DNA of 26,155 bases from a virus: IMG/VR virus record IMGVR_UViG_3300030101_000513, positions 1 to 26,155 of that record. One strand, 5' to 3'. Positions within the stretch are counted from its first letter, which is position 1. The number at the start of each line of letters is the position of its first letter. A program made the position numbers and the translations under genes. Positions 9,518 through 25,987 of the stretch are shown in pieces. The notes under the pieces were generated by a model. The model did no database searches, was not told the DNA's origin, and saw only the letters and a list, made by a program, of their open reading frames with translations.

Positions 9518-9647
9518 TCTCTTTCTCCTTTCGTTTCATCCACTCTTCATAACAAGGATGGTGACGAGGGGGATTGTATTGCACCCACCCATCACCTCGT
9601 TTCCATGCTAAACTAATCTCTTTTTTTTGCTGATTCTTTTTTACCAC
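9498..9647 (-). CDS. Small basic protein, GTG start (49 aa), read by hand
   Basis: The frame starts at GTG with GGAG seven bases upstream. It runs as VVKKNQQKKEISLAWKRGD, then GWVQYNPPRHHPCYEEW, and ends in a Lys/Glu/Asn-rich tail. It overlaps the preceding small gene by 35 bases and the following one by 20. The composed middle part (Trp, Tyr, Pro, His, Cys) does not look like out-of-frame noise, and the ribosome site is good. No family recognised. Confidence 0.6.
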   Translation of the reverse strand: MVKKNQQKKEISLAWKRGDGWVQYNPPRHHPCYEEWMKRKEKENENKND

Positions 9648-9723
9648 GTAAATACTCCGGTTGTTTTTGGAACTTAATAAATCTGCTGAGTAACTTTACT
9701 AGCATGTCAGCTATCTTATCCAT
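9613..9723 (-). CDS. Very small basic protein (36 aa), read by hand
   Basis: ATG at 9723 has AGGA about nine bases upstream and overlaps the stop of the previous small gene (ATGGATAA). The product begins MDKIADMLVKLLSRFIKF, an amphipathic helix, and ends in a Lys/Arg-rich tail. The amphipathic basic shape could bind membrane or nucleic acid, but that is speculation. It sits in a 320-base stretch that otherwise looks gene-free and is filled by a chain of three overlapping small genes. Confidence 0.5.
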   Translation of the reverse strand: MDKIADMLVKLLSRFIKFQKQPEYLRGKKESAKKRD

Positions 9724-9823
9724 TACGCTGCTTCCTAAACCTGTGCTTGAAGAATACAACTACATTAATAGCGGTGTTGACAGTGATAGCCAATAATAAC
9801 CACCACTGCCACCAGTTAGGCAT
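9716..9823 (-). CDS. Small single-span membrane protein (35 aa), read by hand
   Basis: The frame opens at ATG 9841, overlapping the stop of the ribonucleotide reductase gene (ATGA), but an in-frame ATG at 9823 has GAGG eight bases upstream and is preferred. The product starts MPNWWQWW, continues with a hydrophobic helix (LLLAITVNTAINVVVFF) and ends in a basic tail (KHRFRKQRNG). This is a typical small phage inner-membrane protein with a positively charged cytoplasmic end. Coupling to the reductase gene is likely; function unknown. Confidence 0.6.
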   Translation of the reverse strand: MPNWWQWWLLLAITVNTAINVVVFFKHRFRKQRNG

Positions 9824-9837
9824 GTCTGCACCCTCAA

Positions 9838-21185: not shown

Positions 21186-21235
21186 GATGTTTCTCCTTTC
21201 GTAAAGTTAACTGATAGTTTGTTGTACCACAGGCG

Positions 21236-21295
21236 TCACAAAAGCGCAACAGCAAATAGTACAAAAAAGACTGCTAGTCCAAATAGTACATCCAT
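21236..21295 (-). CDS. 19-residue hydrophobic peptide, read by hand
   Basis: ATG at 21295 lies six bases after GGAG, which itself encodes the end of the cell-wall hydrolase gene. The product is MDVLFGLAVFFVLFAVALL followed by TGA. It is a single uninterrupted membrane-spanning helix with almost no polar residues. It fills most of the only gap between the hydrolase and the DUF932-like gene. Such a short frame could be chance, but the strong ribosome site, exact helix length and location after a lysis-type gene support it as a real membrane peptide. Confidence 0.5.
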   Translation of the reverse strand: MDVLFGLAVFFVLFAVALL

Positions 21296-21298
21296 ATA

Positions 21299-21950: not shown

Positions 21951-22505
21951 TCATTCTCCTTTCATCCAGTAAGGCATCTCTCTGCCGCCCTTGTCCCATC
22001 GGGCAAACGCAGCCTTGTCTATCTTGTAGAAGGCACGGTATGCCTCAATAGGCCAAGCCTCGTCCGTCTTGCAGTCATCGTGTCCGCTGAAGCACTGCGG
22101 GTGTGAAGTCAACCCTGTGTATGGGCTAAGTGGGTCTTTCTGTGGAAACACAGGCTCACGAGTGGTAGGTATGAGAGGTGCAATGAAACGCAAACTCTTC
22201 AACGCTTTCCTGTGCTTACCTGCACCATGTTCTCTGCCATAGCGAAATGTATATTCTTTCAGCATTGCATCGTACAATGCAAAGGCAAAGGCAAAGTTAC
22301 CTGATGACTTCATTACCCACAGTGTGCAAGGATGTTTTTTATGCACGGGTTTGTACAAGTCATATTTCTCTGCCCATCTAGGCTCAAGTTCCCATACTGC
22401 CGTACACATCATTTGTGCTTCCTCCAGTGGCATTTTGACAATGTGCTGGTCACACAAAGACTTGGCAATGTCTTCTGGGTGGTGTTCAATCAGAAACCTG
22501 TTCAT
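21951..22505 (-). CDS. Conserved phage protein with CDQHIVKM ... HPCTLWV motifs (184 aa)
   Basis: ATG 22505 is preferred over the longer frame because GGAGG lies eight bases upstream and the previous stop overlaps it (ATGA). Conserved-looking blocks are CDQHIVKMPLEEAQMMCTA near residue 18, YKPVHKKHPCTLWV near 50, YTFRYGREH near 85, and a C-terminal AYRAFYKIDK ... PYWMKG. I recall similar proteins in many phages and some bacteria, with the same His/Lys/Glu block and a terminal Trp. I cannot attach a function. The conserved His, Glu and Cys would fit an enzyme. Confidence 0.75.
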   Translation of the reverse strand: MNRFLIEHHPEDIAKSLCDQHIVKMPLEEAQMMCTAVWELEPRWAEKYDLYKPVHKKHPCTLWVMKSSGNFAFAFALYDAMLKEYTFRYGREHGAGKHRKALKSLRFIAPLIPTTREPVFPQKDPLSPYTGLTSHPQCFSGHDDCKTDEAWPIEAYRAFYKIDKAAFARWDKGGREMPYWMKGE

Positions 22506-22645
22506 CCCATAATCCTCCCTGCAATTCCAATGGCGACATGATACAGCATCCAGCCTATGCTGGCCCATATACATGCAAACAGAAACATCTCAATGCCGTC
22601 ATGCGTGAGGTAGTAGTCCCTCACCCTGTGCCACAGTTTATTCAT
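22502..22645 (-). CDS. Small single-span membrane protein (47 aa)
   Basis: The longer frame starts upstream, but ATG 22645 has GGAG seven bases before it. The product begins MNKLWHRVRDYYLTHDG and has one hydrophobic helix (about residues 18-44, MFLFACIWASIGWMLYHVAIGIAG). A basic N terminus suggests an N-in orientation. Its stop overlaps the next start (ATGA). No family recognised; small membrane proteins of this kind are common in early phage regions. Confidence 0.7.
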   Translation of the reverse strand: MNKLWHRVRDYYLTHDGIEMFLFACIWASIGWMLYHVAIGIAGRIMG

Positions 22646-22829
22646 TCTCACTCTCCAATAAAGGACCAACATCATTCCAAACAGCAACTGTTTTTAATTC
22701 ACACAGCCTGCGGGATAATATGTCGTTTACTTCTTCCCATGCCTGCTCTTCGGAATCGGCGTACACATCAATCGTTAGCTTACCACCAAACGAAACTAAA
22801 GTAACTTCGATAAAAAATCGCTTACTCAT
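22638..22829 (-). CDS. Small hypothetical protein (63 aa)
   Basis: ATG 22829 is chosen over the longer frame because GGAGG lies five bases upstream. The product begins MSKRFFIEVTLVSFGG and shows strand-helix-strand character (KLTIDVYADSEEQAWEEV). It overlaps the previous gene end by eight bases and the next gene by eight. It resembles small single-domain phage proteins with a beta hairpin and helix, but no named family. Confidence 0.7.
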   Translation of the reverse strand: MSKRFFIEVTLVSFGGKLTIDVYADSEEQAWEEVNDILSRRLCELKTVAVWNDVGPLLESENE

Positions 22830-23103
22830 GCTCACCTCCATTGCCTCTGCCAAGCCCACCGAAATACTGCGGCTTACGCTTGGCTGTCTCAAACACACCT
22901 GCCGTAATGAACACGCCAGCAATCAGCATGGCATGGGCAATCGCACTGATGCCAAAGGCTACGACGCTACCCACCCACATGCTGAAGATGATACACCACA
23001 TCCATGCCAGCACCTGCATTACCATGTGCCGTGTATTCATGTCGGGTATGTGGGACAGCGGGTTGTACCGCCAGTCCATGATTAGTTCCCATGTATTACG
23101 CAT
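22822..23103 (-). CDS. Two-helix membrane protein (93 aa)
   Basis: ATG 23103 is used; the longer frame begins with TTG two codons earlier. The N terminus (MRNTWELIMDWRYNPLSHIP) is followed by two hydrophobic segments at about residues 26-48 and 50-70 (VMQVLAWMWCIIFSMWVG, then AIAHAMLIAGVFITAG) and a basic, Gly-rich tail. I recall similar NTWELI-DWRYNPL membrane proteins in marine phages. Two closely spaced helices are compatible with a holin, but the hydrophilic N-terminal extension is unusual for that. Function unknown. Confidence 0.7.
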   Translation of the reverse strand: MRNTWELIMDWRYNPLSHIPDMNTRHMVMQVLAWMWCIIFSMWVGSVVAFGISAIAHAMLIAGVFITAGVFETAKRKPQYFGGLGRGNGGEHE

Positions 23104-23362
23104 TTTCAAGCACCCGGTTCACTTTCTTCATGCCTTCTAGATCAGGAAGATCATTCAGCTTGTCATGTAACACGTGCTTGGCACGATTGATTGTTTGTCT
23201 TGCTCGTTCGACATCGAAGGTTAGTTCCATCTGTGCATCACTGAGCATAGACATAACCACCATCATGTAGCCCATGCGGTCATTCCATTCAGTGTACACA
23301 CCCTCTTCAAGTTCAGCTTCTGTCATACCATACATGTTGATCTGTTGTTCTTGGGTCAGCAT
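23096..23362 (-). CDS. Hypothetical helical protein (88 aa)
   Basis: ATG with AGGAG six bases upstream. The protein is rich in Met, Glu and Asp, starts MLTQEQQINMYGMTEAELEE, and continues as a long helix (VERARQTINRAKHVLHDKLND). The first 25 residues read like a short helix-turn segment, but no DNA-binding motif is convincing. The gene follows the first of three palindromic repeats and a GC-rich hairpin, so its expression may be set there. It overlaps the next gene by eight bases. Confidence 0.75.
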   Translation of the reverse strand: MLTQEQQINMYGMTEAELEEGVYTEWNDRMGYMMVVMSMLSDAQMELTFDVERARQTINRAKHVLHDKLNDLPDLEGMKKVNRVLENA

Positions 23363-23389: not shown

Positions 23390-23410
23390 GGGGCGACACC
23401 GCGCCGCCCC
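23390..23410 (-). promoter_or_regulatory. GC-rich hairpin in leader of the 88-aa gene
   Basis: On the minus strand GGGGCG (23410-23405) pairs with CGCCCC (23395-23390) around a nine-base loop. No U-tract follows, so it is not a standard intrinsic terminator for the gene ending at 23437. It lies 28 bases before the next ATG and beside a palindromic repeat. It may be an RNA-processing or stability hairpin, or an attenuator. Confidence 0.45.
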
Positions 23411-23412
23411 AT

Positions 23413-23440
23413 GAAAAGTTTTGACTGGTAAAAAGTTTAC
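23413..23440 (-). repeat. Palindromic intergenic repeat, copy 1
   Basis: Contains the 15-base core AAAAGTTTTGACTGG (plus strand, 23414-23428) shared by three gaps, followed by the palindrome GTAAAAAGTTTAC (23428-23440). It overlaps the stop codon of the gene ending at 23437 and precedes the 88-aa gene. Likely a protein-binding or promoter element. Confidence 0.7.
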
Positions 23441-23682
23441 CGTGCCTCGTGGATCACGAAGTCGTTACCATTCTTGGACACGATCCGGTACAGGTTGTAG
23501 AAGGGCATACCATAGTAGCGGATGTGCTTGCCGTCATTGACCTGAAGGAACTGACCATTCTCAGATGGGCCAACGTAGTATTTCCCCATATGATTGAAGT
23601 CGCGAAGGTTAGTGCGATCAATCGAAGGCTTGGCACCTGATACGGCGTGGACGAGGTTGGTAAGTTTGACTTTGATAAACAT
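23437..23682 (-). CDS. Small basic hypothetical protein (81 aa)
   Basis: ATG 23682 is chosen because AGGAG lies eight bases upstream; a longer frame starts six codons earlier. The product begins MFIKVKLTNLVHAVSG and has a beta-rich pattern with many Tyr, Asn and Gly residues (YYVGPSENGQFLQVNDGKHI). It looks like a compact beta domain. No family recognised. Its stop codon lies within repeat copy 1. Confidence 0.75.
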   Translation of the reverse strand: MFIKVKLTNLVHAVSGAKPSIDRTNLRDFNHMGKYYVGPSENGQFLQVNDGKHIRYYGMPFYNLYRIVSKNGNDFVIHEAR

Positions 23683-23708
23683 GAATTGTTCTCCTTTCAT
23701 GTGTTGGT

Positions 23709-23903
23709 TTAGTTATCACGATTGTGAGTATTCATATAATACTCCTGAAAGTTGCGCTTGGCAACCCTTGCAGCCTTACGCGCTTTCTTTTGTTCTTCGC
23801 GCTTGGCCTTACCTGTAGTCTTACGCACAGGAATCTTTTGAAAGACAGACACATCGTGCCAGTCATGGTCGAAGTCAATCATCATCTTTTTTGCGTTCGG
23901 CAT
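23709..23903 (-). CDS. Small Lys/Arg-rich protein (64 aa)
   Basis: ATG with AAGGA eight bases upstream. The N-terminal half (MPNAKKMMIDFDHDWHDVSV) is followed by a strongly basic helix (about residues 29-52, with KAKREEQKKARKAARVAKR) and a polar tail. The basic helix could bind nucleic acid or be surface exposed. It overlaps the preceding small gene by 29 bases. Function unknown. Confidence 0.7.
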   Translation of the reverse strand: MPNAKKMMIDFDHDWHDVSVFQKIPVRKTTGKAKREEQKKARKAARVAKRNFQEYYMNTHNRDN

Positions 23904-24018
23904 CTTTCTTGTCCTTATCTCTGTTGTATGAACCTTTGCCCTTCTTGGGCGGGACTACCTGTGGACGACGACGATTAGCCGCCGCCACTGGATTATGTAT
24001 ACGAACTATCCTAACCAT
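23875..24018 (-). CDS. Small basic protein (47 aa), read by hand
   Basis: ATG 24018 overlaps the stop of the preceding gene by eight bases (ATGGTTAG). The product runs MVRIVRIHNPVAAANRRRP, then QVVPPKKGKG, and ends in a Lys/Asp-rich tail. There is no strong ribosome site, so coupled translation is assumed. It fills the 107-base gap between its neighbours and has consistent composition. No family recognised. Confidence 0.55.
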   Translation of the reverse strand: MVRIVRIHNPVAAANRRRPQVVPPKKGKGSYNRDKDKKDAERKKDDD

Positions 24019-24262
24019 TGTCAAGTAGTTTGACAGGATTAAAGTTCATATCAACTTCCCATGATGTGCGGCACTCAGCCTCACGCCGTGCTTCGTGAAA
24101 CGTGTTGTGTGTCGAGAAGTTACGCTTACCGTCATCATTCTCAATCATCAACGTCCAGCATCCAATCTCTTTGGTTATAGCCACATGGCTGTAGCAATTG
24201 ACACCAAAGTAGGTGCCGCGAGTCTCCGGCATAAGTTGGAACTCTGAAATATACTGTGTCAC
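24011..24262 (-). CDS. Small hypothetical protein (83 aa), GTG start
   Basis: GTG 24262 overlaps the previous stop (TAGTG) and has AGGAG eight bases upstream. The protein looks like a compact alpha/beta domain: MTQYISEFQLMPETRG, then VAITKEIGCWTLMIENDDG and NTFHEARREAECRT. Two of its three cysteines flank the central part. No family recognised. Confidence 0.75.
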   Translation of the reverse strand: MTQYISEFQLMPETRGTYFGVNCYSHVAITKEIGCWTLMIENDDGKRNFSTHNTFHEARREAECRTSWEVDMNFNPVKLLDNG

Positions 24263-24570
24263 TATACATTCTCCTCAAGATACTCGTGGCGTTTAAACAC
24301 AGCGTCGATGTCAGCAATAGTCGTGCAATCTTTCAACGCATACCTAGCATAGCCCTTGTTAGTCCAAGATGCAAGCCAGTCCTTACAGCCTTCATAGTCC
24401 ATATAGAACTCGTACTGTTCGACATTGTATATCCCATACTCAGCCCAATGGTCAAGGTCATTGGTCACGATACCAATCCACAGTCCCGGCTCATTAGCCA
24501 TGCGCTTGCGACTTTGGTCATTCACACTGTCAATGTGATTGCGCAGTTCAATTTGTTCTTGCGTGTGCAT
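24262..24570 (-). CDS. Hypothetical acidic protein (102 aa)
   Basis: ATG with GGAG seven bases upstream, inside the end of the membrane-protein gene. The product is rich in Asp, Glu, Tyr and Trp (LWIGIVTNDLDHWAEYGIYN; YEFYMDYEGCKDWLASW), acidic overall and without membrane segments. Small acidic early phage proteins are often inhibitors or DNA mimics of host enzymes, but nothing specific supports that here. Confidence 0.75.
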   Translation of the reverse strand: MHTQEQIELRNHIDSVNDQSRKRMANEPGLWIGIVTNDLDHWAEYGIYNVEQYEFYMDYEGCKDWLASWTNKGYARYALKDCTTIADIDAVFKRHEYLEENV

Positions 24571-24573
24571 GGT

Positions 24574-24744
24574 TTATCTCCACTTCCGATAGATTGTGCT
24601 GATAGCCGCCTGCCCCAGAACAAGGGACAGGGTGTACAGTGCCGTCTCAATGGGTGACGTGTAGCCAACCATAATAGGCAGGGTGATAGTGACGCCGATC
24701 ACGCAGAGGATCAGTGTGGTTACGATAAGAGTTTTCTGAATCAT
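24574..24744 (-). CDS. Two-span small membrane protein, holin candidate (56 aa), read by hand
   Basis: ATG 24744 has AAGGA seven bases upstream. The product has two hydrophobic helices, about residues 5-27 (TLIVTTLILCVIGVTITLPI) and 36-51 (ALYTLSLVLGQAAIST), joined by a short polar turn (GYTSPIE) and ended by a basic tail (IYRKWR). Length, two spans and a basic C terminus fit class II-type holins. It is about 2.9 kb upstream of the SleB-like hydrolase rather than adjacent. Repeat copy 2 lies just before its ribosome site. Confidence 0.65.
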   Translation of the reverse strand: MIQKTLIVTTLILCVIGVTITLPIMVGYTSPIETALYTLSLVLGQAAISTIYRKWR

Positions 24745-24758
24745 GGTTCATTCCTTCC

Positions 24759-24787
24759 GAAAAGTTTTGACTGGTAAAAAGTTTTAC
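24759..24787 (-). repeat. Palindromic intergenic repeat, copy 2
   Basis: Carries the shared core AAAAGTTTTGACTGG (24760-24774, plus strand) followed by the perfect palindrome GTAAAAAGTTTTAC (24774-24787, two-base centre). It overlaps the stop codon of the GP88-like gene and precedes the ribosome site of the 56-aa membrane protein, the same arrangement as copy 1. Confidence 0.75.
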
Positions 24788-25659
24788 GCAGCAACATGGT
24801 TTACAAAGCCGGACGTGTCTTTCCACGCATCCGGCCCTTTGGGGAGCAAACCCACAACGACACTGCGTGGGTCACTAGGACGATAGTCGTGTGCGTCACC
24901 ATTGATGACATCATACCCTCTGAATGTTTTGGGCAGTGTCTTGTCTGGTGTGCATAGAACAGCCGCCACATTCCAGCCCTTGCCAATGGCTGTCTCAAAG
25001 AACAAACCATTTGCCTCATTGAGTGAGAACGTCAAGCTATAGTTTGGTATGTGATCGACATCCCTGTTGATATCTTTGGTGTAGTCGTAGAACACTACGT
25101 CAGGAAAAGCACTAAACATCTCAGGGAATAGTTTTTCCCATAAAGTATCCTGCACCACATTAGGACGCACGGCACACGTGACACCTAGTTTGTCGGCCTT
25201 ACGCTTGTGCAAACCTATCTCATGCAACAGCCTAGTCTTGAATTGATCACGGTATTCCATCCACAACAACATGCGAGTGATACGAGCAATGTGAACATTG
25301 TGTCGCCCATCAATGACCATGTGTTTCTGCCCATGCCCACTGAAAGTAAGACAGGCCAAGCCGCACCCGATAGATGCATTATTGCACCCGTTGTAGCCAG
25401 ATGCCCACGATGCCGCTTTGGATATACCAGCAGTGAGAACATATTCCTTGTCTGACTTAACGAGCTTGGGATTGCGAGTCAAAAGCTTGGGTAACTTAGA
25501 CCAATCAAGAACACCATCAGGGCGTAAGGCATTAGCAATCTTGGAACGTGCCGCCTCACGACAGGCAAGAACAAGCGGGTCATTGTCGTAGTGGTCACGC
25601 AATGTCTTGTTAGCAGTGCGCATATAGTCACGATAGTTTTTGAGATTGTGGGTGGTCAT
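24784..25659 (-). CDS. GP88-like phage protein
   Basis: ATG 25659 is preferred over the in-frame GTG three codons earlier because GGAG sits eight bases upstream (291 aa). The region GYNGCNNASIGCGLACLTF (C92, C99, C103), an Arg-rich helix (RHNVHIARITRMLLWMEYR), LLHEIG, and AVRPNVVQDTLWE reproduces the order of motifs in the mycobacteriophage GP88 family. Those proteins have a Cys-rich segment, then AR-KT helices, then VRLN-SDI-WE. Their function is unknown to me; the motifs suggest a metal or nucleic-acid enzyme. Repeat copy 3 lies in front of it and copy 2 at its end, so it may form its own transcription unit. Confidence 0.7.
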   Translation of the reverse strand: MTTHNLKNYRDYMRTANKTLRDHYDNDPLVLACREAARSKIANALRPDGVLDWSKLPKLLTRNPKLVKSDKEYVLTAGISKAASWASGYNGCNNASIGCGLACLTFSGHGQKHMVIDGRHNVHIARITRMLLWMEYRDQFKTRLLHEIGLHKRKADKLGVTCAVRPNVVQDTLWEKLFPEMFSAFPDVVFYDYTKDINRDVDHIPNYSLTFSLNEANGLFFETAIGKGWNVAAVLCTPDKTLPKTFRGYDVINGDAHDYRPSDPRSVVVGLLPKGPDAWKDTSGFVNHVAA

Positions 25660-25676
25660 GTCATTCACTCCGAAAT

Positions 25677-25704
25677 GTTTTTACCAGTAAAAAGTTTTGA
25701 CTGG
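25677..25704 (-). repeat. Palindromic intergenic repeat, copy 3
   Basis: Holds the shared core AAAAGTTTTGACTGG (25690-25704) but in a different frame of symmetry: CCAGT (25684-25688) and ACTGG (25700-25704) form the arms of an interrupted palindrome around AT-rich sequence. It lies in the 85-base gap before the GP88-like gene, upstream of its ribosome site. Confidence 0.7.
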
Positions 25705-25744
25705 CTGGGTTGGATTGATAGCGTCCTTACACACTACCAAAAGA

Positions 25745-25987
25745 TTACTCGCGTGTCAAGCTGTCCCAATCGACTAAATCATTGACGATATCTGACGCAA
25801 GCTGTTCACGTTGTTTGTCATTGAAAGCCTCAGTACCGCAGTCCATGAGATTGCCCACACCCATGCGAGTGATAGGATGGACACGCTCTAGCCGCATTGG
25901 ATTGACATCAGGCATGTCTGTCCAAGCCGCACGTAGTCGCGTAGGTGCCTGCACCATAGGCGAGTCGTTTTCCCATACAAGCTTCAT
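25745..25987 (-). CDS. Small hypothetical protein (80 aa)
   Basis: ATG with a GGTGG-type ribosome site seven bases upstream, overlapping the previous stop (ATGA). The product starts MKLVWENDSPMVQAPTRLRA and ends with an acidic helix (LASDIVNDLVDWDSLTRE). It is rich in Asp, Arg, Met and Pro, with no membrane segment. No family recognised. It is followed by an 85-base gap with repeat copy 3. Confidence 0.75.
   Translation of the reverse strand: MKLVWENDSPMVQAPTRLRAAWTDMPDVNPMRLERVHPITRMGVGNLMDCGTEAFNDKQREQLASDIVNDLVDWDSLTRE

Follow-up and report, generated by a model that had tools for sequence, protein, structure and literature searches.

Three copies of one palindrome in the early block of a marine phage fragment are probably stoperator-like operators of a phage-encoded repressor of ~200 aa, whose specificity would have co-diversified with its sites as immunity groups; judging from sequence, we put the probability of this reading at about 0.8. 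The array, its placement, its swaps between relatives and the covariation of regulator and operator can be read directly from the DNA and proteins compared here.

The window, the whole stretch of DNA that was analysed, is a fragment from IMG/VR and has 26,155 bases. It encodes a DNA polymerase with 71.9% identity, over the full length, to the enzyme of Puniceispirillum phage HMO-2011, followed by genes for RNR, DnaB helicase, primase and integrase, in a block resembling that of HMO-2011. On this identity and gene content we assign the window to an HMO-2011-type marine podovirus. HMO-2011-type phages are among the dominant phages of the sea. Megablast of the early block against phage records gave no match, and the sequence of the closest relative by primase (L269, 87%) stops short of the early block.

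A palindrome repeated three times in the window

There are three exact copies of AAAAGTTTTGACTGG in the whole window, at 23414, 24760 and 25690, the positions that an earlier note on this DNA had given. In 60 dinucleotide shuffles of the window, no 15-mer reached three copies. The genes around the repeat are transcribed on the minus strand, and read on that strand all three copies have the organisation GTMAAA(A)C-TTTTTAC-YR-GTMAAAAC: a half-site GTMAAA(A)C, an inverted half-site TTTTTAC, two bases and a further half-site GTMAAAAC. Because they share this organisation, copy 3 is not the different kind of palindrome for which it had been taken. The distance to the extra upstream half-site GTMAAA(A)C varies among copies; that between the last two half-sites is constant in all three, and we therefore take the dyad TTTTTACYRGTMAAAA (23419-23434, 24765-24780 and 25678-25693) as the core. 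The sites and their neighbours, in transcription order, are:

25745..25987, minus strand: early ORF of 80 aa, before operator copy 3
25731..25759, minus strand: possible sigma-70-like promoter, TTGACA-N17-TAGTGT; 37 bp separate the end of its -10 from operator copy 3 downstream
25678..25693, minus strand: putative operator copy 3, the first along the direction of transcription; its core dyad is TTTTTACTGGTAAAAA, and the extra half-site widens it to ~25670-25704
24784..25659, minus strand: GP88-like early gene (phrog_1617, PF17338), between copies 3 and 2
24765..24780, minus strand: putative operator copy 2; core TTTTTACCAGTCAAAA, extended 24756-24786, overlapping the GP88-like stop codon
24574..24744, minus strand: early ORF of 56 aa, behind operator copy 2
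23419..23434, minus strand: putative operator copy 1; core TTTTTACCAGTCAAAA, extended 23414-23439, overlapping the stop codon of ORF 23437-23700
23390..23410, minus strand: GC-rich 8-bp hairpin without a T tract (-16.7 kcal/mol), directly downstream of operator copy 1
23096..23362, minus strand: early ORF of 88 aa, behind operator copy 1

Copy 1 overlaps the TAA stop codon of ORF 23437-23700 and copy 2 that of ORF 24784-25668, as had been noticed. From the end of the site to the next start codon it is 19 nt at copy 3 and 21 nt at copy 2; at copy 1 the hairpin precedes the next gene. That the copies occupy the only sizeable gaps was overstated, as minus-strand gaps without the repeat are found at 23904-24010, 22575-22821, 21186-21298 and 9518-9837 in a mechanical ORF call, some of which may hold small genes.

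The array is kept in relatives and its sequence replaced

At the stringency used, a search of viral contigs for the operator pattern of the window had no other match, and the sequence is also missing from five contigs that carry the same GP88-like gene (81-83% aa identity). Each of these five has six to seven copies of a palindrome of its own in the corresponding gaps, TTTTCAYSATGAAAA, GTGTTAWWTAACAC or GTAACGCCGTTAC. Spacing is similar, successive copies being 913 and 1346 apart in the window versus 905 and 1364 in contig G005. The GP88-like gene is conserved and flanked by operators in the window and in relatives, where small genes similar to the 80-aa ORF also lie between operators. The earlier note had proposed a search of close relatives for the core. 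The literal sequence is absent from them, but arrays of other palindromes stand in the corresponding places, and the test taken literally would have misled because one palindrome has been swapped for another.

The swap is clearest between G003 and G005, whose GP88-like genes are identical at 843 of 870 DNA positions. At three orthologous sites the downstream flanks are identical (60/60) and the upstream flanks agree at 39/69, 55/62 and 58/62 positions; the palindrome itself has been replaced, GTGTTAWWTAACAC versus GTAACGCCGTTAC.

We then took as bait a conserved gene oriented divergently to the early block, fetched 80 more loci, and searched their early sides for palindromes de novo. The loci come from metagenomes, and near copies occur among them. 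Around the conserved divergent gene there are ~15 palindrome sequence types, a number that depends on the threshold, and every type is a near-perfect dyad. Every relative with a gene of ~200 aa in the slot that opens the early block has an array of its own, of 3-12 copies, at the same junctions between genes and mainly within that block. Cultured phages have such palindromes too: those of HMO-2011, CRP-345 and CRP-1 are GTCCGACAGCGGAC versus GTCCAACGTTGGAC, and HMO-2011 has five copies of TAGTCCGACAGCGGACTA.

A candidate regulator gene accompanies the array

The ~200-aa gene is the first of the early block in relatives, and the arrays begin around it. Co-occurrence was scored in the 47 loci whose early side extends for 3 kb or more. 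An array is present in 30/30 loci with the slot gene, with scores of 15-68 against at most 8 in shuffles, and absent from 17/17 loci without it; the latter include L035 and L038, which have a slot-size ORF of an unrelated family and were set aside after their sequences had been seen, the table otherwise reading 30, 2, 0 and 15. The ~200-aa ORFs in or near the slot of the array-less L028, L035, L038 and L066 form one separate BLAST group. CRP-207 gp01, another ~200-aa protein of a different family at an array-less locus, matches DUF7178.

The slot genes fall into ~ten BLAST groups (again a threshold-dependent number), each with its own operator type. In the largest family, A5, with 58 non-redundant proteins, the operators are GTCC-R-A...T-Y-GGAC palindromes. 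The motif GTCCRANN[TG]YGGAC is present in 3-7 copies in all 18 bait loci with an A5 gene and in none of the 29 without; among cultured phages it has 5-6 copies in HMO-2011, CRP-1 and CRP-345 and none in CRP-2, CRP-207 and CRP-603. HMO-2011 gp74, CRP-345 gp01 and CRP-1 gp01 are the slot proteins of their phages.

The A5 profile had no detectable relative among Pfam (scan of 58 members), PHROG and PDB sequences, and fold searches of the PDB with a full-length model (pLDDT 67) and a domain model (pLDDT 82) gave no match. A fold search of BFVD returned one strong match, S4S2E1 (205 aa, 38% identity), which is presumably HMO-2011 gp74, and one weaker match to an unnamed phage protein. Between regulator families with different operators there is mostly no sequence homology, so that a single mechanism for all of them is an assumption; hhalign of two families found no homology, with just four sequences on one side. 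Because the window has no regulator gene, the pairing for its own sequence is drawn from relatives, and the regulator of the window presumably lies beyond the contig end.

One residue and one operator base covary in family A5

In A5 operators, GTCC is followed by A at 36 loci and by G at 22. Residue 112 (numbering of the L044 protein) is T with GTCC-A in 36/36 and S or K with GTCC-G in 22/22, an agreement of 58/58 non-redundant proteins. On a regulator tree built without column 112, the operator base changed at least nine times, seven of these changes being forced by well-supported branches, and residue 112 moved with the base in all seven independent pairs on such branches. It is also the sole column of 125 that differs in all nine hand-picked near pairs. 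As column 112 is the best pick of the whole alignment, the sign-test p (0.016) is no fair p-value. A better check is that all 49 left-out loci, HMO-2011, CRP-1 and CRP-345 among them and most of them near copies, agree with the rule. Residue 112 falls in a predicted helix of an all-helical domain (model with pLDDT 82).

One A5 operator copy often lies inside the regulator gene, where it encodes K-S-N/D-V-G in the linker (L044 and relatives). Column 143 covaries with the operator trivially, because its codon belongs to this internal copy, and it was left out of the covariation evidence. Also left out was a raw association, ignoring kinship, in which the purine or pyrimidine flanking the operator matches K/R at residue 81 and R,K/Q at residue 65 with no exception.

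Sites lie downstream of promoters, at gene junctions and inside genes

We surveyed 436 sites in 83 loci for sigma-70-like promoters (score >= 6) within 100 bp upstream. They precede 24% of sites versus 9% of random positions, the excess being mainly at the third and fourth site (40-43%) and most other sites being much nearer background; the -10 mostly ends 0-60 bp before the palindrome. In the window such a promoter is found at copy 3 alone and none at copies 1 and 2; its weight-matrix score is 7.0, and with 8/12 consensus bases it falls below the cut-off of a simple scan. Sites typically end ~16-23 nt before a start codon. Some lie inside coding sequence, and some have no start codon behind them. 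In roseophages CRP-345 (record 7079) and CRP-1 (record 6868) an operator copy is found inside the integrase gene.

Where the centre of the palindrome is asymmetric, its orientation is biased ~4:1 or more, although both orientations occur and the inverted one makes up a sizeable minority. A purely symmetric operator would not require such a bias.

Of the two functions proposed for the repeat in the earlier note, operators for a dimeric regulator are strongly supported by dyad symmetry, conserved placement and covariation with an adjacent phage gene that reaches the level of one residue and one base. Phage-specific early promoters, in which a phage RNA polymerase or sigma factor would recognise the palindromes, are a very improbable explanation. 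The position of sites just upstream of gene starts would suit promoters; their dyad symmetry, their occurrence in both orientations and inside coding sequence, the separate sigma-70-like promoters upstream, the promoterless sites and the lack of an annotated RNA polymerase gene in HMO-2011 argue against them.

A proposed mechanism and its alternatives

We propose that an operator array controls the early block and ends with the three window palindromes, and that a phage-encoded protein of ~200 aa, its gene in relatives lying among the operators, binds the palindromes, probably as a dimer. At a site with a promoter upstream, such as copy 3, the bound protein would block initiation or early elongation. 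At promoterless junction sites, such as copies 1 and 2, the bound protein would stand as a roadblock in the way of elongating polymerase, as at stoperators. On the simplest account the regulator would be autoregulated and would act on operators and on promoterless, stoperator-like sites along the early block. Palindrome and protein change together between phages, which would let the repressor of each lineage ignore the operators of its neighbours, as in immunity groups. Binding, dimerisation, repression, the block to elongation and the part played in lysogeny and immunity are what we infer from these sequence patterns. We favour repression over activation because the sites lie downstream of promoters and inside genes, and immunity because specificity diversifies fast, many HMO-2011-type phages are reported to have an integrase (PMC6918029, PMC9038755, PMC8528129) and CRP-3, of the HMO-2011 phage group, has been shown to integrate (PMC6918029). 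A more inclusive proposal, to which we give slightly less than even odds, is that these marine phages, abundant worldwide, have a modular immunity cassette of a new kind. One genomic slot would accommodate any of ~ten repressor families unrelated in sequence, each with its own palindromic stoperator array in the genome, which would have to be rewritten at 5-12 sites at every change of cassette, and within one family residue 112 (T versus S/K) would set the operator base.

The same operators and protein might instead serve the lytic cycle, as an early-gene shut-off or an activator, with no role in lysogeny or immunity. We consider this unlikely, though it is the most serious of the alternatives. 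HMO-2011-type phages were isolated by lysis, and searches of bacterial genome contigs with the divergent gene and the regulator found no relatives and no prophage. The integrase does not track the regulator and array, being present in regulator-less contigs too, and co-occurrence therefore lends no support to a role in lysogeny. (The integrase match regions of G021, G027 and G028 contain in-frame stops, possibly from decayed genes or profile overrun.) Against a lytic regulator, the repeated specificity switches and whole-cassette replacement fit selection for non-cross-reacting repressors, a regulator that only timed the lytic cycle would have less cause to diversify, and the integration of CRP-3 is that of a member of the same phage group.

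Control at the RNA level, by a protein that binds mRNA hairpins before the ribosome-binding site and blocks translation, would account for the distance of ~16-23 nt from site end to start codon and for the biased orientation. We think it improbable, because the window copies form next to no RNA structure (0 to -0.2 kcal/mol), some sites are inside genes or lack a start codon behind them, and a sizeable minority of copies have their asymmetric centres inverted. Sets of several short palindromes to which a phage protein binds also occur in the partition systems of phages and plasmids, and the array could in principle be a partition centromere or a set of replication-origin iterons. The sites are spread one to a gene junction rather than clustered, a subset has promoters upstream, relatives have no ParA- or ParB-like annotation and the slot protein has no Pfam match, which together leave this explanation a very small chance.

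Comparison with known systems

The proposed system would work most like the stoperator system of Cluster A mycobacteriophages, yet it is no member of it. In Cluster A (L5, Bxb1; PMC6550527, PMC9283540), as here, a short site recurs between genes both with and without a linked promoter, the regulator covaries with the site sequence from one phage group to another, and it has ~200 aa. The L5 sites are 13-bp and asymmetric, number >20 per genome (~20-30, genome-wide), and are bound by a monomer with two DNA-binding domains (PMC6550527, PMC9283540). Those described here are palindromic, three in the window and 3-12 in relatives, and are mainly in the early block; their candidate regulator has no sequence kinship with that of Cluster A, no L5 gp71 homology being detected, and whole non-homologous regulator-operator cassettes are exchanged. 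Cluster A sites are oriented along the direction of transcription, and their repressor blocks elongation and makes the cell immune to superinfection; in the present loci the bias in orientation is ~4:1 or more, with both orientations represented.

Lambdoid CI/Cro operators are palindromic sites of a phage regulator with heteroimmune variants. They share with the present sites the palindrome and a probably dimeric phage regulator; unlike them, the present sites recur along the early operon and inside genes, not just at a divergent promoter pair, and a Pfam scan of 58 regulator family members found no CI-type HTH, with or without peptidase S24. The SAS/ESAS of Cluster K mycobacteriophages, 13-bp and non-palindromic, are conserved across the cluster, and their supposed role is in translation (PMC3203893). 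They too are short sequences repeated just upstream of the start codons of non-structural genes, whereas the sites here are palindromic and, from one relative to another, are exchanged for a different sequence along with a gene. The word 'repressor' does not occur in the texts of PMC6918029, PMC8528129 and PMC9038755, which name no repressor or operator.

Differences in the palindrome-protein 'password' could blind the switch of one phage to the sites of another, and fast-diversifying specificity is what is expected of superinfection-immunity groups. Two aspects seem to us of wider interest: that many operator sites are rewritten in concert while the DNA around them stays nearly identical, and that in a protein family with no known relatives one residue can be linked to the base that it would recognise. 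As a candidate regulator gene and predicted binding sites are now available in three cultured phages, lysogeny and mutual exclusion are directly testable.

Other features of the window

The gene at the window end, tried as a lead to further relatives, reached only contigs with another operator type (L349 and L350, which are the contigs of L045 and L046). Rfam and tRNA scans of the window returned nothing. At 21951-22574 on the minus strand, the window encodes a protein that matches the pyrimidine-dimer glycosylase family PF03013 above the curated cut-off.
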